Source: Terriglobales bacterium (GTDB lineage: Bacteria > Acidobacteriota > Terriglobia > Terriglobales > Acidobacteriaceae). From it: DNA of 40,022 nucleotides. Made by a program: the position numbers and the translations under genes. The stretch is taken from NCBI GenBank assembly GCA_035691485.1, contig DASSIZ010000094.1, positions 1-40,022 on the forward strand, given 5' to 3'. The notes beneath the pieces were generated by a model that was not told the DNA's origin, ran no database searches, and saw nothing but the letters and a program-made list of their open reading frames with translations. Shown in pieces: positions 7,632-34,285 of this stretch (within the stretch, counting starts at the first letter, position 1; each line of letters opens with the position of its first letter).

Positions 7632-7793
7632 CGGCAATGTGCGGCCACGGAAATCCAGGGCAAAAGATCCGTGCCATACGAACGTGTTGACGAAGCCTGC
7701 CTGGTCGCGTATTTTTGCCTCCTGCCGATGACTGCCGTCCGCTAGTCCGCGACCCTCTGCTGAAATCCTGCTGATCCATACGTGTGTATTTTT

Positions 7794-7828
7794 CAGTCCG
7801 TCATTCTGTCAGTCTGACTGACGGACTG
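7794..7828. repeat. Palindromic GACTGA-type junction repeat
   Basis: Ten-base arms CAGTCCGTCA (7794-7803) and TGACGGACTG (7819-7828) flank an inner stem GTCAG/CTGAC. It sits 25 bases upstream of the acetyltransferase start. Related GACTGA motifs occur before the arginase gene (13028-13047) and before the DUF711 gene (33028-33055). Confidence 0.6.
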
Positions 7829-7853
7829 AGCGACCGATTTCGAGAGGACAAGA

Positions 7854-8666
7854 ATGAAATTCGTGGACATAGAGATGGCGCGACGGCTAGAGGCAGCTGA
7901 GGACGTGCCGCAGGTGGAGATCGCGCGCGTGTTGCAGCGCACGCATCCGGAAATCGGGGCAGACATCCTGGAGATTGCGGGCGGTCATGCGGTTTTCGCC
8001 GGAGCCAATTCGCCGGTCGGGCGCGCGATCGGCCTGGGACTGGATGGCCCGGTCACGGCTGCAGCTCTGGACGAGGTGGAAGGGTTCTACCGCAAGCACA
8101 ATGTGGCGGCACAGGTGGACATCACGCCGGTGACGAACGGGTCTTTGCTGGAGTTACTCAAGACACGCGGATACGTGATGACAGAACTGAACAACGTGAT
8201 GGCCCGGAAGCTCGAACCGCACGAGCGATTTGACGAAAACGAGGCCGGGCTGGAGTTCTGCGCCTGTGCGCCGGAAGATAGAGCGCTGTGGGCGAAAACC
8301 ATGTTGCAGGGCTTTTTTGCCGGGGATTCGGTCCCGGTTGGTTGGGAAACATTCGTGGAACCGATGACCGAGGTGCCGGATTCACTGGCCACGATTGTGT
8401 GGTCGGGCGAGCGGCCGGTGGCATGCTGCGGGGGGCTGATCTCTCGCCGGCATCGCATGGTCGCGCTTGGCGGCACGAGCACGCTGCCGGAGTTTCGCAG
8501 GCGCGGCATCCAGGCTGCGGCGATTGGCCGGAGATTGAATCGCGCGGTGGCGGCCGGATGCGATTTGGCGGTGGTGGTCACGCAGGGGAACACGACTTCG
8601 CAGCGAAACGCGGAGAGGCTGGGATTTACGCTGGCTTACTCAAAGGCCACGGTAGTGAAAGCGTAG
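7854..8666 (+). CDS. GNAT family N-acetyltransferase
   Basis: A 270-residue acetyl-CoA-dependent acetyltransferase; the substrate cannot be read from sequence. The C-terminal half holds the GNAT core: the strand VALGGTSTLPEFRRRG, with the acetyl-CoA pyrophosphate loop RRRGIQ at 215-220, and the late motif NAERLGF at 252-258. The N-terminal half looks like a degenerate GNAT copy (LLELLKTRGYVMTELNNVM resembles the same late strand-helix unit), so the protein may be a tandem GNAT with one active half. ATG 7854 follows GAGAGGAC by a few bases. It is separated from its neighbours and carries a palindromic repeat immediately upstream. Confidence 0.85.
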   Translation: MKFVDIEMARRLEAAEDVPQVEIARVLQRTHPEIGADILEIAGGHAVFAGANSPVGRAIGLGLDGPVTAAALDEVEGFYRKHNVAAQVDITPVTNGSLLELLKTRGYVMTELNNVMARKLEPHERFDENEAGLEFCACAPEDRALWAKTMLQGFFAGDSVPVGWETFVEPMTEVPDSLATIVWSGERPVACCGGLISRRHRMVALGGTSTLPEFRRRGIQAAAIGRRLNRAVAAGCDLAVVVTQGNTTSQRNAERLGFTLAYSKATVVKA

Positions 8667-8797: not shown

Positions 8798-10666
8798 ATG
8801 CCATTCCATCGCAAATCACTGACCGCGCATGCTTTCCCTGGCGTCGGGCTGTTTTTTGCGGCCCTCACCTTGATTTTGCCGGCGCTGCCGGGAGTGCGCG
8901 CCCAGGCGTCGGCGATGAGGCCGGCACACGCGCCACACACCATGGTCGCAAGCCAGCACGAGGCGGCGTCGCAGGCGGGCGTGGAGATCCTGAAGCAGGG
9001 CGGCAACGCGGTGGACGCGGCGGTGGCCACCGGTTTCGCGCTAGCTGTGGTCCATCCGCAGGCGGGGAACATAGGCGGCGGCGGGTTCATGCTGGTGTAC
9101 CTGGTGAACGGTAAACCCACATCGGCCAAAACCGGGCAGATGTGGGGCACCTTCAAGTTCATTGATTACCGCGAGAAGGCGCCGGCGGCCGCCACTCGCA
9201 ATCTATACCTGGACGCGCAGGGAAACGTGATTCAGGGCGCCAGCCTGGTGGGCTACAAAGCGATCGGAGTCCCCGGGTCGGTCGCAGGGATGGCATACGC
9301 GGAGAAGAAATTCGGCAAGCTGACGCTGGCGCAAGTGATGGCCCCGGCGATCCGGCTGGCGCGTGAAGGGTTTGCGCTCTCCTACGAAGATGCGCAGGAC
9401 TTGCGCAATCCGAAGCTGCACTTGCAGGAGTTTGCCGAGTCGCGACGCATCTTCCAGCGCGACGGCAACTATTACGAGCAAGGTGAAATCCTGAAGCAGC
9501 CGGAGCTGGCGCGCACCCTGGAGCGGATCGCGAAAAATCCTGAGGACTTTTATCACGGCGAGCTGGCGCGCGAGCTGGTGGCCGCGGTGCAGAAGGGTGG
9601 CGGCCTGATCACCGCAAAGGACCTGGCGGATTACGGGGTCAAGGAGCGGGAGCCGGTGCACGGGACGTATCGCGGCATGGATATTTACAGCGCGCCGCCG
9701 CCATCGTCGGGCGGAGTAGCGCTGCTGGAAATCCTAAACATCCTGGAGGGGTACGACCTGAAGAAGTACGGAGCGGGATCGGCGGAGGCGATGCACCTGA
9801 CCATCGAGGCCTACCGGCGCGCGTTCTATGATCGAGCGGAGTTTTTGGGCGACCCCGATTTTGCCAAGATTCCGGTGGCGCAGCTGATCGACAAGAAATA
9901 CGGCGCCGCGTGGCGGGAGTCGCTGGATCCGGACAAGGCAAGCGCGAGCAACGGGCTAAAGCGTCCGGCGATTTTCAGCGAGCTGGAGCGGTATGCGTCC
10001 AAATCAGTCGACGATCGAAGTTCGACGGTCGATGGTGGTCGTTTGCCGGAGTTGGCCCACGAGGGCGTGAACACGACGCACTATTCTGTTGTCGATGCTG
10101 AGGGCAACGCAGTCGCCGTGACGACAACGCTGAATGAGAGCTTCGGTTCGGCTGTAACCGCCGAGCGACTGGGCTTTCTGCTGAACGATGAGATGGACGA
10201 TTTCAGCTCGAAACCCGGGGTGCCAAACCTGTACGGGCTGCTACAAGGCGAGGCCAACGCGATTGGACCGGGAAAGCGTCCGCTGTCGGCGATGACGCCG
10301 ACGATGGTGATCAATAACGGGAAGCTGCTGCTGGTGATGGGATCGCCAGGCGGGCCGCGAATTATCACCACCGTGGCCAACGTGCTGCTGGGCGTGGTGG
10401 ATTATGGACTGAACGTGCAGCAGGCGGTCAATGCGCCGCGTTTCCACGAGCAGTGGTCTCCGGATTGGGTGTACGCGGAGCGGGTGGGATTTTCGCCGGA
10501 CACCATGAACCTGTTGCGCAACATGGGTCACAAGTTTGCCGGCGACGACCCGGTATGGTCGAGCGGATATTGGGGCGACGCCGAGGTGATCGAGATCAAT
10601 CCCAAGACCGGGGAGCGCCTGGGTGCGAGCGACGCCAGGAACAACGGGAAGGCAGTGGGATACTAG
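8798..10666 (+). CDS. ggt: Exported gamma-glutamyltranspeptidase
   Basis: Ntn hydrolase that cleaves gamma-glutamyl bonds of glutathione and related peptides in the periplasm. It has 622 residues including a signal peptide to about residue 35. The proenzyme cleaves itself before the nucleophilic threonine T426, visible in NTTHYSVVDAEGNAVAVTTTLN at about 425-446. Large-subunit signatures include MVASQHEAASQAGVEILKQG, GGNAVDAAVAT, NIGGGGFMLV and YRRAFYDRAEFLGDP; LSAMTPTMV and GSPGGPRI mark the small subunit. A Ser/Asp/Gly-rich stretch (residues 403-414) just before the cleavage site is encoded by a GTCGA-rich direct/inverted repeat and looks like a small insertion. An AT-rich repeat follows the gene. 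Confidence 0.96.
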   Translation: MPFHRKSLTAHAFPGVGLFFAALTLILPALPGVRAQASAMRPAHAPHTMVASQHEAASQAGVEILKQGGNAVDAAVATGFALAVVHPQAGNIGGGGFMLVYLVNGKPTSAKTGQMWGTFKFIDYREKAPAAATRNLYLDAQGNVIQGASLVGYKAIGVPGSVAGMAYAEKKFGKLTLAQVMAPAIRLAREGFALSYEDAQDLRNPKLHLQEFAESRRIFQRDGNYYEQGEILKQPELARTLERIAKNPEDFYHGELARELVAAVQKGGGLITAKDLADYGVKEREPVHGTYRGMDIYSAPPPSSGGVALLEILNILEGYDLKKYGAGSAEAMHLTIEAYRRAFYDRAEFLGDPDFAKIPVAQLIDKKYGAAWRESLDPDKASASNGLKRPAIFSELERYASKSVDDRSSTVDGGRLPELAHEGVNTTHYSVVDAEGNAVAVTTTLNESFGSAVTAERLGFLLNDEMDDFSSKPGVPNLYGLLQGEANAIGPGKRPLSAMTPTMVINNGKLLLVMGSPGGPRIITTVANVLLGVVDYGLNVQQAVNAPRFHEQWSPDWVYAERVGFSPDTMNLLRNMGHKFAGDDPVWSSGYWGDAEVIEINPKTGERLGASDARNNGKAVGY

Positions 10667-10673
10667 AAGCGCA

Positions 10674-10699
10674 TTTGAAATTTGTAATTTGTAATTGAA
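10674..10699. repeat. AT-rich AATTTG junction repeat
   Basis: A run of imperfect ATTTGAA and ATTTGTA units lies just after the ggt stop in an otherwise GC-rich region. The same wording recurs at 28214-28240 and in inverted form at 28285-28319. Confidence 0.5.
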
Positions 10700-10769
10700 A
10701 AGCGGCGCCAGATAACCGACCACCGTGAACCGCAAACCATGTTTTACTGGGAGCTGACGGCTAATAGCT

Positions 10770-11643: not shown

Positions 11644-12987
11644 ATGGAGACACAAGAGGCAAAGGCAGTCGCGCCATGGGCGCGGATTGAAGAGATCGGA
11701 AAGCACGAGGGGCAAACGGTAGAGCTGCGCGGGTGGCTGTACAACTTGCGCGAGAGCGGGAAGCTGCTGTTTCCGCAGTTCCGCGACGGCTCGGGCGTGA
11801 TCCAGGGCGTGGTACCGAAGAACCAGGCGCCGGAAGCGTTTGCGGCGCTGAAGGGACTGACCCAGGAATCAAGCGTGATTGTGCGCGGCAAGGTGCGGGC
11901 CGACAAGCGCGCGCCCGGCGGATACGAGCTCGACGTCAACGAAGTACAGGTAGTGCAGAAAGTGCCGGAGAACGATCCTTATCCGATCTCGCTGAAAGAG
12001 CATGGCGTCGACTTCCTGATGGAGCACCGCCACCTGTGGCTGCGCACGCCGCGGCAGGCGGCGATCCTGCGAATCCGCGCGGAGATCATCAAGGCAACCC
12101 GTGATTTCTTCGACTCCCAGGGATTTATTCTGACCGATCCTCCGATTTTGACGCCGGCCGCATGCGAGGGTACGACCACGCTGTTCCCGGTCGACTATTT
12201 CGAGGAGCAGGCCTACCTGACACAGTCGGGACAGCTGTACATCGAAGCCACGGCGATGGCCTTGGGCAAGGTGTATTCGTTCGGGCCCACTTTCCGGGCA
12301 GAGAAGTCGAAAACGCGGCGGCACCTGACCGAGTTCTGGATGGTGGAGCCGGAACTGGCGTTCGCCGAACTCGACGACTTGATGAACCTGGCCGAGGGGC
12401 TGCTCACGCACATCGTGGCGCGAGTGTTGGAAAGCCGGCGCAAAGAGTTGGGGCTGATTGGGCGCGACATCACGAAGCTGGAAAAGATTACCGCGCCCTT
12501 CCCGCGGATCAGCTACGACGAGGCAGTCGCAATCCTGCAGAAAGGTCATGCCGAGGGCAAGCTGGAGACAAAGTTCGAGTGGGGCGGCGACTTCGGTTCG
12601 CCCGACGAGACCTACATCTCGGGGCAGTTCGACCGGCCGGTGATGGTGCATCGCTACCCGGTGGAGGTGAAGGCGTTCTACATGGAGCCCGACCCGAAGA
12701 ATCCGAAGGTGGCGCTGTGCGTGGACGTGCTGGCGCCGGAAGGATACGGCGAGATCATCGGCGGGTCGCAGCGCATGTCGTCCTACGATTTGCTGCGGCA
12801 GCGGATCCACGAACACAACCTGCCGGAAGAGGCTTTCAAGTGGTATCTGGATCTGCGGAAGTATGGATCGAATCCGCACGGCGGGTTCGGCATGGGCATT
12901 GAGCGCGCGGTAGCCTGGATCTGCGGTTTGGAGCACCTGCGCGAGGCAATTCCGTTTCCCAGAATGCTGCACCGCTTGTATCCGTAA
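11644..12987 (+). CDS. asnS: Asparaginyl-tRNA synthetase
   Basis: Class IIb aminoacyl-tRNA synthetase of 447 residues. An OB-fold anticodon-binding domain covers about 12-110 ([24 protein letters not shown]). The catalytic domain has motif 2 as [17 protein letters not shown] (218-234) and motif 3 as [33 protein letters not shown] and the ending [10 protein letters not shown] point to AsnRS; AspRS has different residues at these sites, though a non-discriminating or archaeal-type AspRS should be kept in mind. Gat genes are not in the window. It follows the TIM-barrel gene by 31 bases and is probably cotranscribed. Confidence 0.93.
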
Positions 12988-12991
12988 GGTT

Positions 12992-13047
12992 TGTCAGTCG
13001 TGGCGGTTTGGACATAATCGATTGAAAGACTGACAGACTGAAAGACT
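12992..13047. repeat. GACTGA junction repeat between asnS and the arginase gene
   Basis: TGTCAGTC (12992-12999) is the inverse of GACTGACA (13028-13035), and GACTGA repeats follow up to six bases before the arginase ATG. It may act as an asnS terminator or leader stem; it lacks a T tract. Confidence 0.5.
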
Positions 13048-13052
13048 TTCCT

Positions 13053-14030
13053 ATGCCCGACGGAACCACAACACACCCCACGGCGTCGCCGGGGCCCATC
13101 ATGGCGCCCGGAATGCCCGCCAAGAAAATCCGCGTCATCGGTGTTCCGCTCGACCTGGGGCAGACGCGCCGCGGCGTGGACATGGGCTGCTCGGCGGTGC
13201 GCGTCGCCGGACTGGAAGCGCGCCTGGAAGCGCTGGGGCACAAGGTAGAGGACGCAGGAAACATCGGCGTCACCATTGCCGAGACCAAGGCATCGTTCGG
13301 ACATCCCAACGCCAAGTACCTGAAAGAAATTACGCAGACCTGTACCAAGGAAGCAGAGCTGGTGGTGAAAACGCTGGAAGCGGGCAAGGTACCGCTGGTG
13401 ATAGGTGGGGACCACTCGATCGCCGTCGGCACCGTGTCCGGGGTTTCGGAGTTTTACCGGCGGCAGAACCAGGCGGTCGGGCTGCTATGGATTGACGCGC
13501 ACAGCGACATCAATACGCCGGACAGCTCTCCCAGCGGCAACGTGCACGGCATGCCGCTGGCGGCGATCATGGGATTGTGGCCGTCGGAACTGGCCAATCT
13601 TTTCGGCTTCTCGCCCAAAGTCAGGCCGGAGAACTGCGTACTGATCGGGGTGCGTGACATCGATGCCATCGAGAAGGAAAACATCCGGCGCGCCGGCATC
13701 GAGGTGTTCACCATGCGCGACATCGACGAGCGCGGCATGCGTACAGTCATGGAAGAAGCGCTGCGCATGGCCGGCCGCGGCACCGCCGGGTATCACGTGT
13801 CACTCGACATGGATTGGATTGATCCCGAGGACGCGCCCGGCGTCGGCACTCCTGTGCGCGGCGGCGCCACTTACCGGGAAGCGCACCTGGCAATGGAAAT
13901 TATCGCCGACCACGGGCGCATGCTGGGCTTCGAGATCGTGGAGGTGAACCCGGTGATCGACGAGCACAATCGCACCGCCGACCTGGCGGTGGAGCTGGCG
14001 CTATCGGCGTTTGGTAAGAAGATTCTCTGA
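13053..14030 (+). CDS. rocF: Arginase
   Basis: Manganese enzyme that hydrolyses L-arginine to ornithine and urea; 325 residues with an N-terminal extension of about 24 residues relative to Bacillus arginase. Binuclear Mn ligands are visible: H121 (GGDHS), D148, H150 and D152 (IDAHSD), D252 and D254 (LDMDWIDP). The substrate-pocket segment is NTPDSSPSGNVHGMPLA (154-170), and the TPVRGGATYREAHLAMEI stretch favours arginase over agmatinase. ATGs at 13101 and 13113 would remove the extension, but no start has a clear ribosome site. No other arginine-catabolism gene is nearby. Confidence 0.93.
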   Translation: MPDGTTTHPTASPGPIMAPGMPAKKIRVIGVPLDLGQTRRGVDMGCSAVRVAGLEARLEALGHKVEDAGNIGVTIAETKASFGHPNAKYLKEITQTCTKEAELVVKTLEAGKVPLVIGGDHSIAVGTVSGVSEFYRRQNQAVGLLWIDAHSDINTPDSSPSGNVHGMPLAAIMGLWPSELANLFGFSPKVRPENCVLIGVRDIDAIEKENIRRAGIEVFTMRDIDERGMRTVMEEALRMAGRGTAGYHVSLDMDWIDPEDAPGVGTPVRGGATYREAHLAMEIIADHGRMLGFEIVEVNPVIDEHNRTADLAVELALSAFGKKIL

Positions 14031-14774: not shown

Positions 14775-15362
14775 ATGCGTATTGCCCGATTGGTGATCTT
14801 GGCTTTCTTACTGCTGGCTACGTCAAGCTTGGTATGGGCGAATGGGGTGCCTGACCCGCAGATGATGGTGGATCCTCCGCCCTTTTGCGGGCCCCCAACC
14901 CTGGTGAGCTCGCCTTTCGATTTTGCCGCCAGTGGTGGAACTGGCACCTATTGCTTCCAACGAAGCGATGCCGGCCTTCCGTGGCTGACGTTGGATGTAA
15001 ACCTGGGGGGCCTTTCGCTGACATTTACGCCCTCCCAGATCAGTTGTCCCACCGATGACCTTTACTTTGCTACGCCGTGTCAAAAGGTCACCGACGGCAG
15101 CGGCAATGTCACGGACTTACTTTTTGTCGCCGATGGCGTGGTCCATCCGGGCATCGGTACGGGAGCGCTTTTCATCATCGACATTAATCCGCCGGCAGGC
15201 ACTTGCACGTTAACGGATACCTCCGGAACGTTCTGCTGGGGAACGGGGAATTTTCACGCCACCGGGCTCACGACGGTCGTCCCCGAACCGGCAAGCGCAG
15301 TCCTGCTGATAAGCGGAGTCGGGGCAATGCTGGGAAAACGTCGGTGGTTGCGGCGCTCCTAA
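14775..15362 (+). CDS. PEP-CTERM sorting-domain protein
   Basis: Exported 195-residue protein carrying a C-terminal exosortase signal. Signal peptide: MRIARLVILAFLLLATSSLVWA. The C-terminal 28 residues hold VPEP (169-172), a hydrophobic segment AVLLISGVGAML and a basic tail KRRWLRRS, the PEP-CTERM tripartite pattern. The middle, about 140 residues, has several cysteines and no domain I recognise. ATG 14775 is chosen for GGAGG seven bases upstream; a TTG two codons earlier overlaps that site. The exosortase that would process it is not in the window. PEP-CTERM proteins are usually linked with exopolysaccharide export. Confidence 0.82.
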   Translation: MRIARLVILAFLLLATSSLVWANGVPDPQMMVDPPPFCGPPTLVSSPFDFAASGGTGTYCFQRSDAGLPWLTLDVNLGGLSLTFTPSQISCPTDDLYFATPCQKVTDGSGNVTDLLFVADGVVHPGIGTGALFIIDINPPAGTCTLTDTSGTFCWGTGNFHATGLTTVVPEPASAVLLISGVGAMLGKRRWLRRS

Positions 15363-25146: not shown

Positions 25147-27831
25147 ATGGCGCTCGGTTTTGGCTTCAACAAGGCGAAGGTCCTCAGCGCGGCGGAAAAG
25201 CACGTCCAACAGGGCAAGCTCCAGAACGCCATTGGCGAATACGAAAAGGTCGCCAAGGAAGACCCCAAGGACCTCACCGTACTGAACACTATCGGCGACC
25301 TGTACGCGCGGCTGGGACAGCCGGAGCGGGCGACCAACTTCTTTCGCCGGGTGGGTGACGCCTACGCGGCGGATGGCTTCACGGTGAAGGCCATCGCCAT
25401 GTACAAGAAGCTCACCAAGCTGACGCCCCACTCCCTCGACGGGCTTCAGAAACTGGCTGAGCTCTACACCCAGCAGGGCCTCTATAACGACGCCCGGCAG
25501 CAGTACGTGGCGCTCGCCGACCATTGGATGCGGGCCAACGACCTGGACGGGGCCGCCCGCGTCTTTCAGAAAATGCTGGAACTCGATCCGGAAAACGCCG
25601 CCATGCAGACCAAGCTGGCCGATCTCTATATCCGGATGGGAAAGCGCGAAGATGCAAAGGAAATTTACTTCCGCGCCGCCGAGTCGCTGTTCCAGCGCGG
25701 CGCCATGGACGCCGCCGACGAGGCGCTGGGCCGCATCCTCAGTATCGACCCCGCCAATACTCGCGCGCTGCTCAAGCGCGGACTGATCGCAGCCGACTCG
25801 GGCGACGGCGCCGCCGCCATCCAGCACCTGCAACGGATCCAGCATCTCGACACCAATCAGGAAGCGCTCGGCGTGTTGCTGCGCGCGCACTTGCAGGTGA
25901 AAGACTTTGCCTCCTGCGAAAAGATCGCGCGTGATCTGGCCGCCGAGCACAACGACCTCAGCGGCATCCAGGCGCTGGCGGAATCGCTGTTGTCGAGCGG
26001 CTCGATCCGGCCAAGTCTTGCCCTGTACAAGGAATTCTCCGGGCAACTCAGCCACCCGGAGTCGCTGCAGCACGCGCTGGACGCAGCTCTCCAGAAGGTC
26101 AATGAAGACGCGCCTTCGCTGGAAATCATCCGCGAAATGTACGGCCAGATCGGTGACAAGGCGCACTACATCGAAACCACGGAACAATTGGCGCACACCC
26201 TGGTCCATGCCGGCGAACTGACACGCGCCCGCGATCTTTATCGCGAACTCACCGAGAGCGAGCCCGAGAATCCCATTCATCAGCAGCACTATCGCCAGGT
26301 GCTGGCCAAGCTGGGAGAGGACCCGGCCGTCCGAACGCTCACTTCCGCGGAAGGCGAGCAGGCGTTCATGGTGGATGAGCTGCAGATGACGGCGCACGCC
26401 GTGTCGCAGGAATATCCCGAAGAGATCGCGGAAGTGATCGAGGCGGCGCTGACCGATTCCGATCTGCTCGAGTCCTACAACATGCCCGCCAAGGCGGTGG
26501 CGCCATTAGAGGCGGTGCTTCCGAAAGCGCCGCGCGATTCCCGAATCACCCAGCGTTTGGCCTCGCTCTACGCGGCCGCCAACCGGTTTGCCGATGCGGC
26601 CAACTGTTGCGATACATTGCATTCGATCTACGCGGAAGCCGGTTACGGCGAAGAGGCCCAGCAGTATAGCGACTTGGCCGCAAAGTACCGGGAGCGCGCC
26701 CGCACGGCGCCACCGATGGCGCATGCCGCACCCGCTTCGGCCTCCCCGGCCCCCGAGGTGGCGGTCCAGCCGCGCGCGGTTTCGGTTCAAGTCGAGCCCG
26801 CAGTAGTGGCGCCTGCGTTTCAAGTCGAGCCCGCAGTAGTGGCGCCTGCGGCCGCCGCGGAGCAGGAAATCGATATCTCGGATGAGTGGGAGGCGCAGGC
26901 GACCGAGCCCGCCGCCGAAGTTGTCCGGGAGCAGTCGGCGCCTTCGGTGGCCGACTTGTTAGAAGAGATCCGCTTCTATATCTCGCAGGGGATGTGGAAC
27001 GAAGCGCGCGTCGCCTGCGAACGCTGCCAGAGGATCGCGCCCGGCAATCGCGAAGTCCTCGAACTGGAGGCGAAGGTTTCCGCCGCGCTCGCGCCGGTGA
27101 TCGAGGTCGAGGGTCCGGCTGATTTTGGCATCAGCATGGAAACGGCGCCCGCAGTCGCTTCCATGGCTGCACCCGCGCCGGCTCCTGCCCCCGCCGCGAA
27201 GGCCGACGTGCTCGGCGACTTTGTCTCCGATCTTGAGCGGTCCCTCGGTTCAGATTTTGTGCCCGCAGCCGCCGCCTCTTCTGTACCGGCGAAAGTAGTC
27301 GCGGCGCCGGCGCCAGCCCCGGTCGTGTCCGCACCGGTTGCACAAGTCGTGGCGGTTGCAATTCCAGAGGAAGTCAAGGAAGAGGCGAACACAGTTCTTA
27401 CCGACATGTTCGCCGAATTCAAGGAAGACGCCGAAGCCGGCTCGACGGAAGTAGAGGACCCGGAAACCCATTACAACCTGGGCGTCGCCTTCCGCGAGAT
27501 GGGCCTGATGGACGAAGCCATCGGCGAACTGCAAAAGGTGTGCCTCGCCATCGACGGCGGCGCTCCCTTCAGCCAGACCATGCAGGCCTACACCTGGCTG
27601 GCGCAGTGCCTGGTCGACAAGGGCGTTCCCGGCGCCAGCTTCAAGTGGTACGAACGAGCGCTCAAAATCGCCACCGACGAGCATCAGCGCATGTCGCTTC
27701 ATTACGATCTGGCCGCCGCCTACGAGGCCTCCGGCGATCGCCCCGCTGCCCTGAAGCACTTCATGGAGGTTTACGGCAGCAATATTGACTACCGGGATGT
27801 CGCCGAGCGCATCAAAGCTCTAAGGTCGTAG
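25147..27831 (+). CDS. Large TPR-repeat protein with Pro/Ala/Val linkers
   Basis: An 894-residue protein without a signal peptide, so probably cytosolic. About 500 N-terminal residues form TPR or TPR-like helices (LNTIGDLYARLGQPERATNFF, AAMQTKLADLYIRMGKREDA). Then come disordered Pro/Ala/Val-rich linkers (about 515-585 and 675-740) around a small helical unit (VADLLEEIRFYISQGMWNEA), and a C-terminal TPR block (ETHYNLGVAFREMGLMDEAI). This resembles TPR scaffold proteins of myxobacteria and acidobacteria tied to pili, motility or secretion. ATG 25147 follows GGAG by ten bases. No partner gene identifies its job. The first linker contains a fresh 33-base tandem duplication. Confidence 0.85.
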   Translation: MALGFGFNKAKVLSAAEKHVQQGKLQNAIGEYEKVAKEDPKDLTVLNTIGDLYARLGQPERATNFFRRVGDAYAADGFTVKAIAMYKKLTKLTPHSLDGLQKLAELYTQQGLYNDARQQYVALADHWMRANDLDGAARVFQKMLELDPENAAMQTKLADLYIRMGKREDAKEIYFRAAESLFQRGAMDAADEALGRILSIDPANTRALLKRGLIAADSGDGAAAIQHLQRIQHLDTNQEALGVLLRAHLQVKDFASCEKIARDLAAEHNDLSGIQALAESLLSSGSIRPSLALYKEFSGQLSHPESLQHALDAALQKVNEDAPSLEIIREMYGQIGDKAHYIETTEQLAHTLVHAGELTRARDLYRELTESEPENPIHQQHYRQVLAKLGEDPAVRTLTSAEGEQAFMVDELQMTAHAVSQEYPEEIAEVIEAALTDSDLLESYNMPAKAVAPLEAVLPKAPRDSRITQRLASLYAAANRFADAANCCDTLHSIYAEAGYGEEAQQYSDLAAKYRERARTAPPMAHAAPASASPAPEVAVQPRAVSVQVEPAVVAPAFQVEPAVVAPAAAAEQEIDISDEWEAQATEPAAEVVREQSAPSVADLLEEIRFYISQGMWNEARVACERCQRIAPGNREVLELEAKVSAALAPVIEVEGPADFGISMETAPAVASMAAPAPAPAPAAKADVLGDFVSDLERSLGSDFVPAAAASSVPAKVVAAPAPAPVVSAPVAQVVAVAIPEEVKEEANTVLTDMFAEFKEDAEAGSTEVEDPETHYNLGVAFREMGLMDEAIGELQKVCLAIDGGAPFSQTMQAYTWLAQCLVDKGVPGASFKWYERALKIATDEHQRMSLHYDLAAAYEASGDRPAALKHFMEVYGSNIDYRDVAERIKALRS
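26786..26850 (+). repeat. 33-base in-frame tandem duplication
   Basis: Bases 26786-26817 are repeated exactly at 26819-26850. The copies encode QVEPAVVAPA twice in the first linker of the TPR protein. Exact identity at third positions shows a recent slippage event. Confidence 0.95.
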
Positions 27832-27840
27832 AATCCATAC

Positions 27841-28236
27841 ATGGGTCCAGCCAGCGATCCGAAGGAGCAAGCACGCCAGGTGATGCCGGAAGAAATGCTC
27901 CGGGCTGAGAGCTTGCCTGCAATGGACGGCAAGCTGCATCCGGTCTCCGTTCCCCCGAAAGTCTCGCGCACCACGGTGTGGCTGCACCGCGTGTCGCTGG
28001 TCATCTACGTCATCTTCTGCATCGAGTTGGGAATGCTGTTGGCTGTCCTGCCGTGGACGAAGGTCTGGACCGACAACTCTCTGCTGGGGGCGCATGCTTC
28101 CTGGCGCGTGGTGGTGCAGAACAATTTCGTGCGCGGCGTCGTTACCGGGCTTGGCTTGGTGGATGTCTGGATTGGCATCTGGGAAGCCGTGCACTACCGC
28201 GACCCGGGGAAGAAAAATTTGAAATTAGAAATTTGA
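27841..28236 (+). CDS. Small membrane protein, two TM segments
   Basis: A 131-residue protein of unknown function. A soluble N-terminus of about 50 residues is followed by a TM segment (SLVIYVIFCIELGMLLAVLPW), a short loop with WTDNSLLGAH and a second weakly hydrophobic segment (VRGVVTGLGLVDVWIGIWEAV). Proteins of this shape occur next to TPR genes in other acidobacteria as far as I recall, but I cannot name a family. It starts nine bases after the TPR protein stop and is probably cotranscribed with it. The last residues KNLKLEI are encoded by the AT-rich junction repeat, so the C-terminal end is probably variable. ATG 27883 is an alternative start. Confidence 0.75.
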   Translation: MGPASDPKEQARQVMPEEMLRAESLPAMDGKLHPVSVPPKVSRTTVWLHRVSLVIYVIFCIELGMLLAVLPWTKVWTDNSLLGAHASWRVVVQNNFVRGVVTGLGLVDVWIGIWEAVHYRDPGKKNLKLEI

Positions 28237-28320
28237 AATTGTGAGGGTTCTGTTTTCCCGGGCTGGGTCGGCTAGTCGGCGGCAAATCTCAAATTCTCCC
28301 ATTTCCAATTTCCAATTCCT
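28214..28320. repeat. AT-rich inverted junction repeat
   Basis: AATTTGAAATT units (28214-28240) are followed by a GC-rich core and then by inverted units built on AAATTC and CCAATTTCC (28285-28319). The two arms are imperfect inverses and would form a long hairpin. The right arm ends 19 bases before the next ATG. Confidence 0.55.
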
Positions 28321-28338
28321 GTATTCTTTCTACTCCTT

Positions 28339-29218: not shown

Positions 29219-29292
29219 GGTTTCGGGTTTCTGATTGCTTGTCACGACATAACTGCCAGGAACTGGAAACCAGAAACTGGAAACCAGAAACT
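29219..29292. repeat. 14-base tandem repeat with inverted partner
   Basis: AACTGGAAACCAGA is present exactly at 29261-29274 and 29275-29288, with the start of a third copy. CAGAAACTGGAAACC (29271-29285) is a 13-of-15 inverse match of 29219-29233, giving a large potential hairpin directly before the ATG at 29296. Confidence 0.7.
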
Positions 29293-29295
29293 CCC

Positions 29296-29874
29296 ATGAG
29301 CCTGCTCGCCAAAGCCGCGCTCATCATCTTCGGCGTCTTCCTTGTTTGGCTGCTGATTACCGGCGGCATTGCGCTGGCTCGGGGTCGATTCCACCAGATC
29401 TACCAGGCGCACCTGGGCGAATCGCGTCGCGAGCGCCACTTTCTCGGATCGCTTGCCTTCTTTCTGACCTTTGGCGCAGTTCGAGCCATCACCTACTCCA
29501 TCCGCGCCGGCATCGGCCCATTTCACGACATCAGCGCGGGCGGACGCCACATCCATCACCTTGTCTGGGGCATTCTGCTGTTGCTGATTGTCGGTTATCT
29601 CTGGCTGGCGGAGATCGGTACTGGAGCTCTCGACAGCTCGGTCTGGACGGGTCGCATTACTGTGCTGCTATACGGAGTTGGAGCCGCGCTTACCCTCGAC
29701 GAATTCGCGCTCTGGCTCAATCTTGCCGATGTCTACTGGTCGCCGCAGGGCCGCGCCAGCATCCGCGCCGCGTTCTTTTTCGGCAGCCTGCTGTCAGTCG
29801 GCTTCTGGGGCGGCCCGTTTCTGCACGCGCTCACCCGCCACGCGCTCGGCCTGCACAAATCTAAGAGCCGGTAA
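29296..29874 (+). CDS. Integral membrane protein with HxHH motif
   Basis: A 192-residue protein with five predicted TM helices (about 5-28, 49-70, 86-107, 120-141, 152-175). Charged and metal-prone residues lie at helix ends or inside them: H85-I-H87-H88 (GGRHIHHLVWG) and D135-E136 (TLDEFALWL). Such a pattern suggests a bound metal or a membrane hydrolase. I recognise the HIHH protein as a recurrent conserved hypothetical but cannot name a function. ATG 29296 is used because the sequence before it is a non-coding repeat. It ends before a terminator and lies after the LOG gene on the same strand. Confidence 0.8.
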   Translation: MSLLAKAALIIFGVFLVWLLITGGIALARGRFHQIYQAHLGESRRERHFLGSLAFFLTFGAVRAITYSIRAGIGPFHDISAGGRHIHHLVWGILLLLIVGYLWLAEIGTGALDSSVWTGRITVLLYGVGAALTLDEFALWLNLADVYWSPQGRASIRAAFFFGSLLSVGFWGGPFLHALTRHALGLHKSKSR

Positions 29875-32333: not shown

Positions 32334-33050
32334 ATGTTTCTCTATTACATCACCGATCGCCGCCAACTTTCGGGTACCGACGCGGAACAGCGAGAGGCAC
32401 TGCTCGGCAAAATTTCCCAGGCGACGCGCTGCGGTGTGGACTTCATCCAGCTGCGTGAAAAAGATCTCAGCGCACGCGAGTTGTTGTGCCTGGCCGAAGA
32501 AGCACGGGCAAGAATCGCGCAACACGCAGCGAGGGGGACCGGGAACTCGCGCGTGATAACCCGCTTGACTATCAATTCGCGCCTCGATGTTGCCCTCGCC
32601 GCCGGCGCCGACGGCGTCCATCTGCGCTCCGACGATATTTCCGCCGCCGATGCGCGCGCGGTTTCCATGGCGGCGGGCGGCGCAAGGCCCCTGAGCCCGG
32701 ATCGCTTCCTAGTCGCCTGTTCTTGCCATACGGCAGAGGAGGTGCGGCGCGCGGAAGCAGACGGCGCCGACCTCGTCGTGTTTGCGCCGGTGTTCGAGAA
32801 AAGCGGAGAGCCCGGTGTCGGATTGGAAGGGCTGCGCGCCGCATGCCTCGGTACACCACCGGCCAAGACACCCGAGCCTTCGCCGGCAATCAAGATTCCG
32901 GTGCTCGCCCTTGGCGGGGTGACGGTCGAGAACGCGAGCGCTTGTCTTGCGGCAGGCGCCGCGGGCATCGCCGGCATTCGCCTGTTTCAGGACCACGACA
33001 TGGAAGAAGTGGTAGCGCGGTTGCGAAAGACTGATCGACCAATCGACTGA
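32334..33050 (+). CDS. thiE: Thiamine phosphate synthase
   Basis: TIM-barrel enzyme that joins HMP pyrophosphate and thiazole phosphate to thiamine monophosphate. The 238-residue product has YITDR (5-9), VDFIQLREKDL (35-45), INSRLDVALAAGADGVHL (80-97), CHTAEEVRRAEADGADLVVFAPVF and ALGGVTVENA, which together define ThiE; the TenI thiazole tautomerase is a close relative that cannot be excluded. At 238 residues it is slightly long owing to an insertion of about 15 residues after GLEGLRAAC. The last residues KTDRPID are encoded by a GACTGA-type repeat. It lies 14 bases upstream of the DUF711 gene. Confidence 0.88.
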   Translation: MFLYYITDRRQLSGTDAEQREALLGKISQATRCGVDFIQLREKDLSARELLCLAEEARARIAQHAARGTGNSRVITRLTINSRLDVALAAGADGVHLRSDDISAADARAVSMAAGGARPLSPDRFLVACSCHTAEEVRRAEADGADLVVFAPVFEKSGEPGVGLEGLRAACLGTPPAKTPEPSPAIKIPVLALGGVTVENASACLAAGAAGIAGIRLFQDHDMEEVVARLRKTDRPID

Positions 33051-33055
33051 TAGAC
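33028..33055. repeat. GACTGA junction repeat overlapping the thiE stop
   Basis: GACTGA occurs twice (33029-33034 and 33045-33050), with the second copy providing the thiE stop. The wording closely follows the repeat before the arginase gene (13024-13047). Confidence 0.5.
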
Positions 33056-33064
33056 TTCTGCCCT

Positions 33065-34285
33065 ATGCGCAGAGTCTTGTTGTTCACCTTCATCGTTCTG
33101 GCTTCACTTCCCGCATTTGCGCAGGCCAAGCCGAAGGTGCGGGCCATCACCGCCTTCGTGCGTCTCGATCGCGCCCAGTACAAGAACCAGATTCGTGACA
33201 CGCTCGCATTCCTGCGCCGCGCCAAGGCAAGCTTCGAGCAGCGTGGATACCAGGTGGAAGGTGTGCGCATCACCACGCAGCCATTTCCGGAACTGGTGCG
33301 CGGGCTCAAGCACGACGAGGCCATGGCTTTCCTCCGCGGCTACGATGAGCTGGCGCAGAAGGAGAACTTCGACACTTCGATCGGTCCCGCCATGCTTTCC
33401 GACGCTGACGATCCCGCCAATGCACGACTGCTGGCGGAGGCGATCGCGGCCGGCAAGATCCTGGAGGGCAGCATCATCATCGCCGGCGAGGACGGGATTC
33501 ACTGGAAATCGATTGCCGCGGCCGCCGACGTCATCAAGTATCTCGAGGAACACAGCGCGCATAGCCAGGCGAACTTCAATTTTGCCGCCACCGCGATGCT
33601 GCCGCCGCTGGCGCCTTTTTATCCCGGCTCGTACCACACCGGCGCGGGCCACCAGTTCGCGGTTGGGCTGGAATCGGCGAACGTGGTGGCCGAGGCATTC
33701 GCGTCGGCGAGCGGGTTCGATACTGCCTCGCAGCAGCTCACCAGCCGTCTCGCCCCTTTTGCCTTGGACATCGAGGCGGGAGCGAAAGAACTCGCTGCCC
33801 ATGCCGGCTGGAGCTACGCTGGCCTGGACCTCTCGCCCGCGCCGCTGAAGGATGTATCGATCGGGGCGGCGCTGGAGAATCTGACCCACGCCCGTGTGGG
33901 CTCCAGCGGCACGATGAGCGCGGTCGCGGCAATCACGGCGGTGTTAAAGGCAATCCCGGTCCAGCAGGCCGGCTATTCAGGGTTGATGCTGCCGCCCCTG
34001 GAGGACAGTGTGCTGGCGCGGCGTTGGAGCGAAGGGGCGATCTCGGTAGATGCTCTGCTGGCCTACTCGGCCGTGTGCGGCACCGGGCTCGACACGATTC
34101 CGCTGCCTGGCGAAATCACCGCGGAGCAGCTTCGGCGCATGCTGGCCGATGTAGCATTTCTAGCGCGGAAATGGCACAAGCCGCTCTCGGCGCGGCTGCT
34201 GCCGGTGGCAGGAAAGAAAGCGGGAGAACGGACCGAGTTCGACGATCCGTTCCTGGTGAACGCCATGCTCCAGCCGCTGCCCTGA
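33065..34285 (+). CDS. Exported DUF711 (UPF0210) family protein
   Basis: A 406-residue protein whose C-terminal part holds the DUF711 signatures GTGLDTIPLPGEITAEQL and KPLSARLLPVAGKKAGERTEF, and an earlier VGLESANVV segment. The family is usually cytosolic and of unknown function, about 450 residues. Here a clear signal peptide (RRVLLFTFIVLASLPAFAQA) precedes the domain, so this one is probably periplasmic. It follows thiE by 14 bases and is likely cotranscribed. No catalytic residues can be named with confidence; GSSGTMSAVAAI may be part of the active region. Confidence 0.85.
   Translation: MRRVLLFTFIVLASLPAFAQAKPKVRAITAFVRLDRAQYKNQIRDTLAFLRRAKASFEQRGYQVEGVRITTQPFPELVRGLKHDEAMAFLRGYDELAQKENFDTSIGPAMLSDADDPANARLLAEAIAAGKILEGSIIIAGEDGIHWKSIAAAADVIKYLEEHSAHSQANFNFAATAMLPPLAPFYPGSYHTGAGHQFAVGLESANVVAEAFASASGFDTASQQLTSRLAPFALDIEAGAKELAAHAGWSYAGLDLSPAPLKDVSIGAALENLTHARVGSSGTMSAVAAITAVLKAIPVQQAGYSGLMLPPLEDSVLARRWSEGAISVDALLAYSAVCGTGLDTIPLPGEITAEQLRRMLADVAFLARKWHKPLSARLLPVAGKKAGERTEFDDPFLVNAMLQPLP

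Follow-up and report, generated by a model that had tools for sequence, protein, structure and literature searches.

The window, a 40,022-nt stretch of contig DASSIZ010000094.1 from a Terriglobales bacterium (assembly GCA_035691485.1; this genome is called G000 below), contains arrays of the 8-base unit GACYGANN at three gene junctions, and TRF reported period 8 at each of them. Site 1 (7793-7837) lies between a YjbR-family ORF and a GNAT-family ORF and consists of two full arms. The left arm (7793..7814, minus strand, TRF period 8) reads GACTGACA GAATGACG GACTGA, while the right arm (7816..7837, plus strand), also of three units, reads GACTGACG GACTGAGC GACCGA and stops 16 nt short of the ATG at 7854. 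The earlier note on this DNA had described a 10-base palindrome at this site. The palindrome is present, although it is a perfect match of 11 bp (TCAGTCCGTCA at 7793-7803 with TGACGGACTGA at 7819-7829), and its 8-nt period and two-arm layout had been overlooked.

Site 2 consists of one arm and a one-unit partner. The partner (TGTCAGTC, 12992..12999, minus strand) lies just past the stop of a class II tRNA synthetase ORF that ends at 12987. The right arm, GATTGAAA GACTGACA GACTGAAA GACT (13020..13047, plus strand, detected by TRF), contains its GACTGACA unit at 13028-13035 and precedes an arginase-family ORF whose ATG is at 13053. Site 3 is a single arm, GACTGATC GACCAATC GACTGATA GACTTC (33029..33058, plus strand, detected by TRF), with GACTGA copies at 33029-33034 and 33045-33050 and a downstream ATG at 33065. 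It overlaps the 3′ end of a thiE-like ORF of the TMP-TENI family (32334-33050), and the second GACTGA copy provides the stop codon of this gene (TGA, 33048-33050), as had been proposed. The orthologous thiE spacers of two relatives, G121 and G297 (L332 and L336), contain both arms, which lie after the upstream stop. The 3′ end of thiE is longer in these relatives and the G000 gene looks shortened (window 33020-33065), and this sequence comparison suggests that a deletion fused the G000 array to a truncated thiE.

The full form of the element is (TCRGTCNN)n-loop-(GACYGANN)n, with the two arms opposed. Two arms were present in 17 of the 30 GACYGA elements of G000 and one arm in the other 13. RNA folding z scores were −3.59 for site 1, −2.27 for site 2 (12992-13047) and −0.43 for site 3 (33029-33058).

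Arrays built from other words also occur in the window. A period-7 array of AAATTTG type (10669..10704, plus strand) occupies the spacer after a gamma-glutamyltranspeptidase ORF; in the orthologous spacers the AAATTTG class is found in G121 and G297, and a GGTTNTC-type class in G073, G121 and G297. Another AAATTTG-type array of period 7 (28210..28245, plus strand) starts within the 3′ end of the upstream ORF and forms the left arm to an inverted right arm of its class, also of period 7 (28292..28324, minus strand); TRF detected both. A further period-7 array, AACTGGAAACCAG, with a 14-nt super-period (29259..29292, plus strand, TRF), lies in the spacer that precedes an ORF with a called start at 29296.

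GACYGANN arrays are more frequent than expected by chance

The pattern GACTGANNGACTGA, allowing at most one mismatch, matched 80 times in the whole genome (3,836,507 bases in 145 contigs), as compared to 6 matches for the reversed pattern; exact matches numbered 18 and 0, respectively. The motif that the earlier note had placed at three gene junctions is real, its coordinates hold, and it takes the form of 8-nt phased arrays. In the 441,637 bases made up of the window and 28 loci, the latter picked around matches, 42 GACYGA arrays reached a score of at least 10, whereas each of five control cores gave none; at a score of 8 the count was 63 against 5-11 for the controls. Unit pairs at spacing 8 numbered 109, compared to 5 for the reversed core. 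Spacings of 12, 16, 20 and 24 were raised as well (64, 56, 23 and 22 versus 8, 10, 6 and 7 for the reversed core), as expected when NN resembles CY. Conversely, neither lone GACTGA hexamers (18 versus 15.2 expected) nor a loose 14-mer with three mismatches (29 versus 24.8) was enriched in the window, indicating that the signal depends on the 8-nt phase.

The letters of the core were constant. Positions 1, 2, 3, 5 and 6 matched the consensus in 95 to 102 of 108 G000 units, whereas positions 7 and 8 were mixed, a contrast that is partly built in since arrays are detected by their core. The earlier description of the copies as common in wording but variable in letters was apt. A scan for exact triple units gave matches in at least 117 stretches of named genomes and in 74 stretches of viral contigs, scattered in both sets and, among named genomes, over many groups; some of these matches are longer or 4-nt tandem repeats, and the scans say little about distribution.

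Many classes of arrays share a nearly fixed arm order

At lag 7, a periodicity scan of the G000 spacers that covered lags 3-30 found 37 hits, and at lag 8 it found 18, compared to 0.3 at either lag in shuffled spacers. Hits of the same type in 384,717 coding bases were limited to two at each of these lags. A scan for arrays of periods 7-10 in four genomes of the genus (G000, G073, G121 and G297) identified 268 arrays in 564 sampled spacers and none in one shuffle of each, in stretches whose G000 loci and some of whose G121 loci had been selected around GACYGA. The periods were 7 (178 arrays), 8 (70), 9 (15) and 10 (5). GACYGANN is one class among more than ten, chiefly of period 7 or 8, whose words include RGCTNTC, GGTTNTC, GGTCGNT, AAATTNG, GTTTCRN, AATTCNGC, GTAATCGG and AGTACYTN. 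Each class consists of a core plus one or two free positions. As the classes were clustered by simple cut-offs, some that are counted as different may be related; TCRGTC, TCRGCT and TCRGTT share letters.

Arm order, scored on neighboring arrays within 90 nt, is nearly fixed in the classes with enough pairs. The two orders occurred in a ratio of 33:1 for GACYGANN (plus one same-direction pair), 18:0 for GGTTNTC (plus one), 9:0 for RGCTNTC, 8:0 for GTTTCRN and 7:0 for GGTCGNT (plus two each), 6:0 for GTAATCGG, 4:0 for TTAGCTA and 3:0 for AATTCNGC. The order was mixed for AAATTNG (7:2, with three same-direction pairs), and AGTACYTN had one pair of each order. Reversed-motif controls were clean for GACYGANN (0 versus 87), GTAATCGG (0 versus 22) and AAATTNG (1 versus 32), and weak for RGCTNTC (34 versus 65), GGTCGNT (18 versus 44), GGTTNTC (12 versus 59) and TTAGCTA (11 versus 29).

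In the five sources searched (the window, L034, L036, L054 and L055), no array matched an Rfam family at gathering score, in keeping with the earlier opinion that no named family fits. The sole Rfam hit in these sources, Acido-Lenti-1 at L034 9825-9872, is not an array; this RNA points to Acidobacteriota as the phylum.

The surroundings of this hit (L034 9742-9934) resemble L055, with 77% identity over 110 nt. Long spacers at L054 3659-4290, L055 15271-16000 and L036 1-553 are similar to one another (74-92% identity in stretches of up to 492 nt) and, by sequence, form a separate multicopy intergenic family.

Arrays favor spacers between co-directional genes

Among the 30 GACYGA elements of G000, 24 were at co-directional junctions, four at divergent junctions and one at a convergent junction, with one lying within a called gene. 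Elements wholly within spacers numbered 25, although spacers make up 13.0% of the bases; the remaining five overlapped called genes, the gene calls being home-made, trained on these loci and approximate in their starts. The earlier note had held that its proposal would fail if the motif were no more frequent at junctions than in shuffled intergenic sequence, and the junction excess is upheld by these counts.

Considering arrays of any class in spacers of 60-300 nt in the four genomes, a count that keeps the GACYGA-selected spacers, arrays were present in 142 of 286 spacers between co-directional genes, in 12 of 43 between convergent genes and in 6 of 51 between divergent genes. When spacers were dropped if they contained the selecting motif or any GACYGA array, 48 of 189 G000 spacers of this size still held an array of some class (41 of 128 between co-directional genes, 7 of 29 between convergent genes and 0 of 32 between divergent genes). 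Similarly, none of 64 G000 array spacers of 40-260 nt was divergent. Arrays are depleted in divergent spacers, but they are not absent. In the 142 co-directional array spacers, the median gap was 14 nt on the side of the upstream stop and 34 nt on that of the downstream start, and the array was closer to the stop in 86 cases and to the start in 56. Arrays favor co-directional spacers without a fixed distance to the start codon, contrary to the anchoring to start codons suggested by the first three sites.

Orthologous junctions often keep an array and exchange its word

Through synteny searches and retrieved stretches, one or more orthologues were obtained for 44 junctions. In the comparisons of a G000 junction with a relative, arrays were present in both in 43 cases, in neither in 37, in the relative only in 29 and in G000 only in 8. 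Junctions with arrays in both species were more frequent than in permutations for each species pair (P 0.001 to 0.028), partly through spacer length, as 0 of 7 G000 spacers under 50 nt held an array. At such junctions the class was identical in 3 of 15, 2 of 13, 8 of 15, 7 of 17, 8 of 20 and 8 of 19 cases in the six species pairs. The chance expectation of 0.8 to 3.2 was exceeded in five pairs (P 0.03 or less), whereas the count for G000 and G121 was not above chance (P 0.21). Thus, where both species have an array, roughly half or more of the junctions differ in class, and the combination of identity above chance with frequent differences points to vertical inheritance accompanied by frequent class exchange. 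That arrays persist between species or swap class at orthologous junctions runs against the notion of a single decaying element.

The tRNA synthetase/arginase junction of site 2 contains GACYGA arrays in G000, G073 and G297 and a period-7 GTCGATG/CATCGAC pair in G121, and at the L034:8260 junction four species have four different classes. The number of units also varies between orthologues. In aligned same-phase orthologous columns, identity was 298 of 334 for the core, a figure inflated since the core locates the arrays, 44 of 88 for NN and 27 of 67 for Y, compared to 1493 of 1990 outside the arrays; out-of-phase columns (201 of 333 identical) were left out.

Dialects of the unit and distribution beyond the genus

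In G000, the Y of GACYGANN was T in 119 units and C in 22. Summed over the three relatives the balance was the opposite, with 93 C and 41 T (50 versus 25 in G121, 6 versus 5 in G073 and 37 versus 11 in G297). TCRGCTN leaned the same way more weakly, with A in 36 of 46 units in G000 as compared to 60 of 91, 21 of 35 and 45 of 65 in the relatives; the TCRGTTN class had no comparable shift. We considered loss of CpG as the cause of the change from GACCGA to GACTGA. This explanation is disfavored because the observed/expected CpG ratio of spacers was barely lower in G000 (1.10 versus 1.16-1.19) and TCRGTTN was unshifted, although TCRGCTN leans.

Elsewhere in the family, AGTYAGCR takes the place of this word in some genera. 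Arrays of this octamer occur at L280-L309 (genera g4, g6 and g8), some of them inverted as AGTYAGCR-loop-YGCTRACT, and G130 contains 35 exact 14-mers of this type, compared to 0 for the control. By reading, two junctions with AGTYAGCR arrays in another genus (L289 and L304) look orthologous, with a largely common loop. In G242, from another family of the same phylum, CTGACARR octamer arrays were found (L252, L258, L267 and L273; 131 exact 14-mers in 7.3 Mb). In the CTGACARR pairs viewed, the arm order was opposite to that of the GACYGANN class and the units were more identical, so that these arrays look to be in a more slippage-like state. In 20 genomes of the phylum, sampled as stretches of up to 20 kb, the picture was patchy: other words with inverted partners occurred in, for example, G009, G051 and G285, several stretches had no arrays, and none was present in 50 kb of E. 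coli K-12.

Copying, pairing and slippage as explanations

The main rival to recognition of the core, and somewhat less probable, is that the arrays are dispersed elements of the REP/REPIN or MITE kind without a host function, which would be copied whole or in part, tolerated where promoters stay unbroken, and replaced by other families at junctions prone to insertion. Inverted pairs, variable loops (about 1-45 nt in 41 two-arm elements of the four genomes), many families per genome, a location mostly in spacers and least in divergent ones, and class replacement at orthologous junctions would all be in line with such an origin. REPs are likewise extragenic inverted repeats of many families, often close together and opposed, and are found mainly in gaps between unidirectional and convergent ORFs (PMC3733652). 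The best-matching pair of elements, at L043 (~1576-1607) and L056 (~8030-8060), shares 31 nt at 96.8% identity, including the same NN and the same GACTGG variant unit. This match may reflect partial copying of an array between loci, and it raises the weight of dispersed elements at the expense of the reading by recognition set out below.

However, no pair among the 30 G000 elements, each taken with 25 nt on either side, reached 90% identity over at least 40 nt, and the next-best pair had 78% over 68 nt. Recent spread as a whole element, which had been suspected at the outset, is therefore not borne out, even if the 31-nt match speaks for copying in part. NN was not common to units or copies beyond chance overall, the recurrence of consecutive NN pairs in the four genomes was not above expectation, and pure decay should erode core and NN equally. 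A REP is a 20-40 bp palindrome, most often with a GTAG or CGTC tag, and the mobilization of GTAG REPs is attributed to RAYT transposases (PMC3733652). By contrast, the present arms, by reading, are direct tandem 7- or 8-mers with no palindrome of their own, complementarity being between arms. The transposase domain PF01797 had one match in G000, whose 2,375-base locus held no lag array. Among 17 of the 31 PF01797 loci viewed in the four genomes, arrays lay beside several, with no consistent class of 7- or 8-mers; a RAYT gene flanked by these repeats was thus not found.

One of these loci, L363 in G121, has a PF01797 RAYT-like gene (1483-1929) between inverted arrays of 10-nt units (~1271-1307 and 2090-2119) that belong to one class, GATGAACGCRG/CATCCGCGTT. 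By its layout, this locus is possibly a REPIN-like unit with tandem 10-mers.

We regard it as unlikely that the arrays serve as RNA hairpins at gene ends, where they would protect mRNA 3′ ends or decouple operon neighbors; any class would do, hence the exchange, and NN mismatches would avoid long perfect duplexes. Array spacers did fold, with a median RNA folding z of −2.44 in 64 G000 array spacers and −0.65 in 187 others, as inverted arms necessarily do. The arrays also lie near the upstream stop between co-directional genes, and in the P6b stems of the Nostoc trnL (UAA) intron complementary heptanucleotides of class I and class II have repeatedly replaced one another with a similar fold (PMC4476775). 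However, the arms did not covary. In 41 two-arm elements of the four genomes the NN match between arms was below the permutation mean (29.4 versus 38.5, SD 3.6; 99.4% of permutations reached the observed value), and variant core units common to both arms numbered 2 versus 2.25 expected in 33 elements, although stem pairing in any register would not require compensatory changes. The transcribed strand was no better folded than its complement (77 versus 71 spacers, P 0.28), a null result that leaves DNA and RNA recognition indistinguishable. An asymmetry between arms that tolerates GU pairs was apparent as a leaning in G121 and G297 and was absent in G000. Moreover, convergent spacers are depleted, unlike what is expected of terminators, 13 of 30 GACYGA elements have a single arm, site 3 has a z of only −0.43, and the use of one word at many loci in a strict arm order would be left unexplained.

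Minisatellites made by slippage are improbable. Tandem units, a unit number that varies between orthologues and the over-representation of heptamers in some bacteria (PMC4692102) would be in their favor, but adjacent units had the same NN in 22 of 180 cases, as compared to 24.3 expected from shuffling units within species. Since the similarity of neighboring units does not exceed that of randomly drawn ones, the GACYGANN arrays are very unlikely to be slippage products, as the earlier note had suggested they might be, and the inverted second arm in nearly fixed order is equally unaccounted for. Least credible of all are insulators that place stops in all frames: although GACTGA holds TGA, the period of 8 is not divisible by 3, inverted arms would serve both strands and thiE takes its stop from an array, the average number of frames with a stop in the first 75 nt past the upstream stop was 1.91 for array spacers, 1.88 for their shuffles and 1.74 for other spacers, GACCGA (common in G121 and G297) lacks TGA, and by reading the GGTTNTC word has no fixed stop.

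Intrinsic terminators are not supported: by reading, the right arms of the three sites in the window are not followed by a long T run, and convergent spacers hold fewer arrays (12 of 43) than co-directional ones (142 of 286).

Discussion

The explanation that we favor, with a probability of a little under 0.4, is that the core is a recognition word read by a putative sequence-specific DNA- or RNA-binding factor. The core would be kept by selection, and the putative factor would advance along the array unit by unit. Different factors that can stand in for one another, or dialects of a single factor, would read the individual classes; with such readers, a junction could swap class and yet keep its array. 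Such factors would work chiefly in the spacer between co-directional genes, which holds the 3′ end of one and the 5′ leader of its downstream neighbor. Because the arms are inverted, the transcript could also fold, with pairing itself unlikely to be the trait under selection. The constant core, the free NN, the lack of covariation between arms, the nearly fixed arm order and the genome-wide dialect fit recognition of the word by a putative trans-acting factor better, in our reading, than a stem selected for pairing. Class exchange at a junction would then require that such factors be interchangeable, unless the arrays are REP-like passengers.

Several observations sit uneasily with this explanation. 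Exchange of class in about half or more of the junctions with arrays in both species is awkward for class-specific regulators, and the depletion of divergent spacers speaks against ordinary promoter regulation. A stem that pairs in any register would likewise preserve the core without covariation, the 31 nt shared by L043 and L056 at 96.8% point to copying between loci, reversed controls were weak in some classes (RGCTNTC and GGTCGNT), and the dialect shift is not confined to one class, as TCRGCTN leans too. A broader proposal, about which we are doubtful, is that of a widespread and hitherto overlooked system in these bacteria, in which putative factors each read a 7- or 8-nt word of their own, unit by unit, and arrays, many of them paired, occupy about a quarter of spacers. 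The word would change genome-wide and junctions would swap class, such that the spacer would be a slot for the system and not for a sequence.

Paired arrays of heptamers or octamers are already known; what is new here is the exchange of classes and the contrast between core and free positions. The closest likeness is to the predicted "global regulator" binding sites of Geobacter metallireducens, classes 1-3, in which paired tandem octa- or heptanucleotide units lie on opposite strands at variable distance (PMC2700814). The window arrays likewise consist of 7- or 8-nt tandem units with free positions, and arrays of their type are paired on opposite strands at variable distance, apart from the 13 of 30 elements with one arm. 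The Geobacter unit words, such as GTTGCTYN and MTYCTGA, have free positions too and form few classes of 8 to 24 pairs; the proBA spacer of G. sulfurreducens has a different conserved sequence, and binding of IHF/HU to the sites is a hypothesis of that paper (PMC2700814). Unlike the present arrays, those sites use other words in what we take to be another phylum, and the accessible part of the paper holds no measure of class exchange, arm covariation or core versus free positions (PMC2700814).

The Nostoc trnL P6b stems differ from the window arrays in that they occupy one locus, within a group I intron, and comprise two classes, with no genome-wide population in spacers in the part of the work available (PMC4476775). 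The heptamers GGGAATC and GGGGAYT of Xanthomonas and Nostoc, with free positions as GGGANTN, are 89% and 93% intergenic in two xanthomonads, lie nearer the 5′ neighbor, are under-represented between divergent genes and have no known function; two species mostly carry them at the same gene junctions, where their length and sequence vary (PMC4692102). They share placement and the absence of a known role with the present arrays, but their word is G-rich and forms quadruplexes, inverted pairs occur in some only, and class exchange is not described in the accessible text (PMC4692102). The TAACTGA repeats of Beggiatoaceae are also short intergenic heptamer arrays with a suspected post-transcriptional role; in contrast to those described here, they are nearly all direct (169 sets, one indirect), use one word and mostly lie just upstream of starts (PMC4679880). 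In the open-access literature searched, which left subscription papers outside its scope, arrays of this kind were not seen to be described for Acidobacteria, although the text of PMC3733652 mentions Koribacter once.

Spacers tend to be interpreted as promoters, terminators or junk; in the sampled stretches of G000, about a quarter of the spacers with a length of 60-300 nt hold an array, and one junction can carry different array classes in sister species. These observations make the multicopy heptamer and octamer families of Geobacter, Xanthomonas and Nostoc, an old loose end, testable, through the question of whether the junction is a slot for a function that any word can fulfill or a landing site. 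They also provide a natural experiment for comparing core, free positions and arms between species.

Other features of the window

Within the gamma-glutamyltranspeptidase ORF, positions 9115-9154 contain a palindromic sequence of about 40 nt (CCCACATC...GATGTGGGGCAC). Matches at about 78-98% identity were listed dozens of times for G121, G073 and G297, with one or more further copies in G000; from these copies, it seems to be a dispersed element tolerated in frame. The ORF at 25147-27831 contains a perfect two-copy tandem repeat of 33 bp (26786-26850), and a small ORF at 14847-15362 has a C-terminal PEP-CTERM sorting motif (PF07589, barely over the cut-off).
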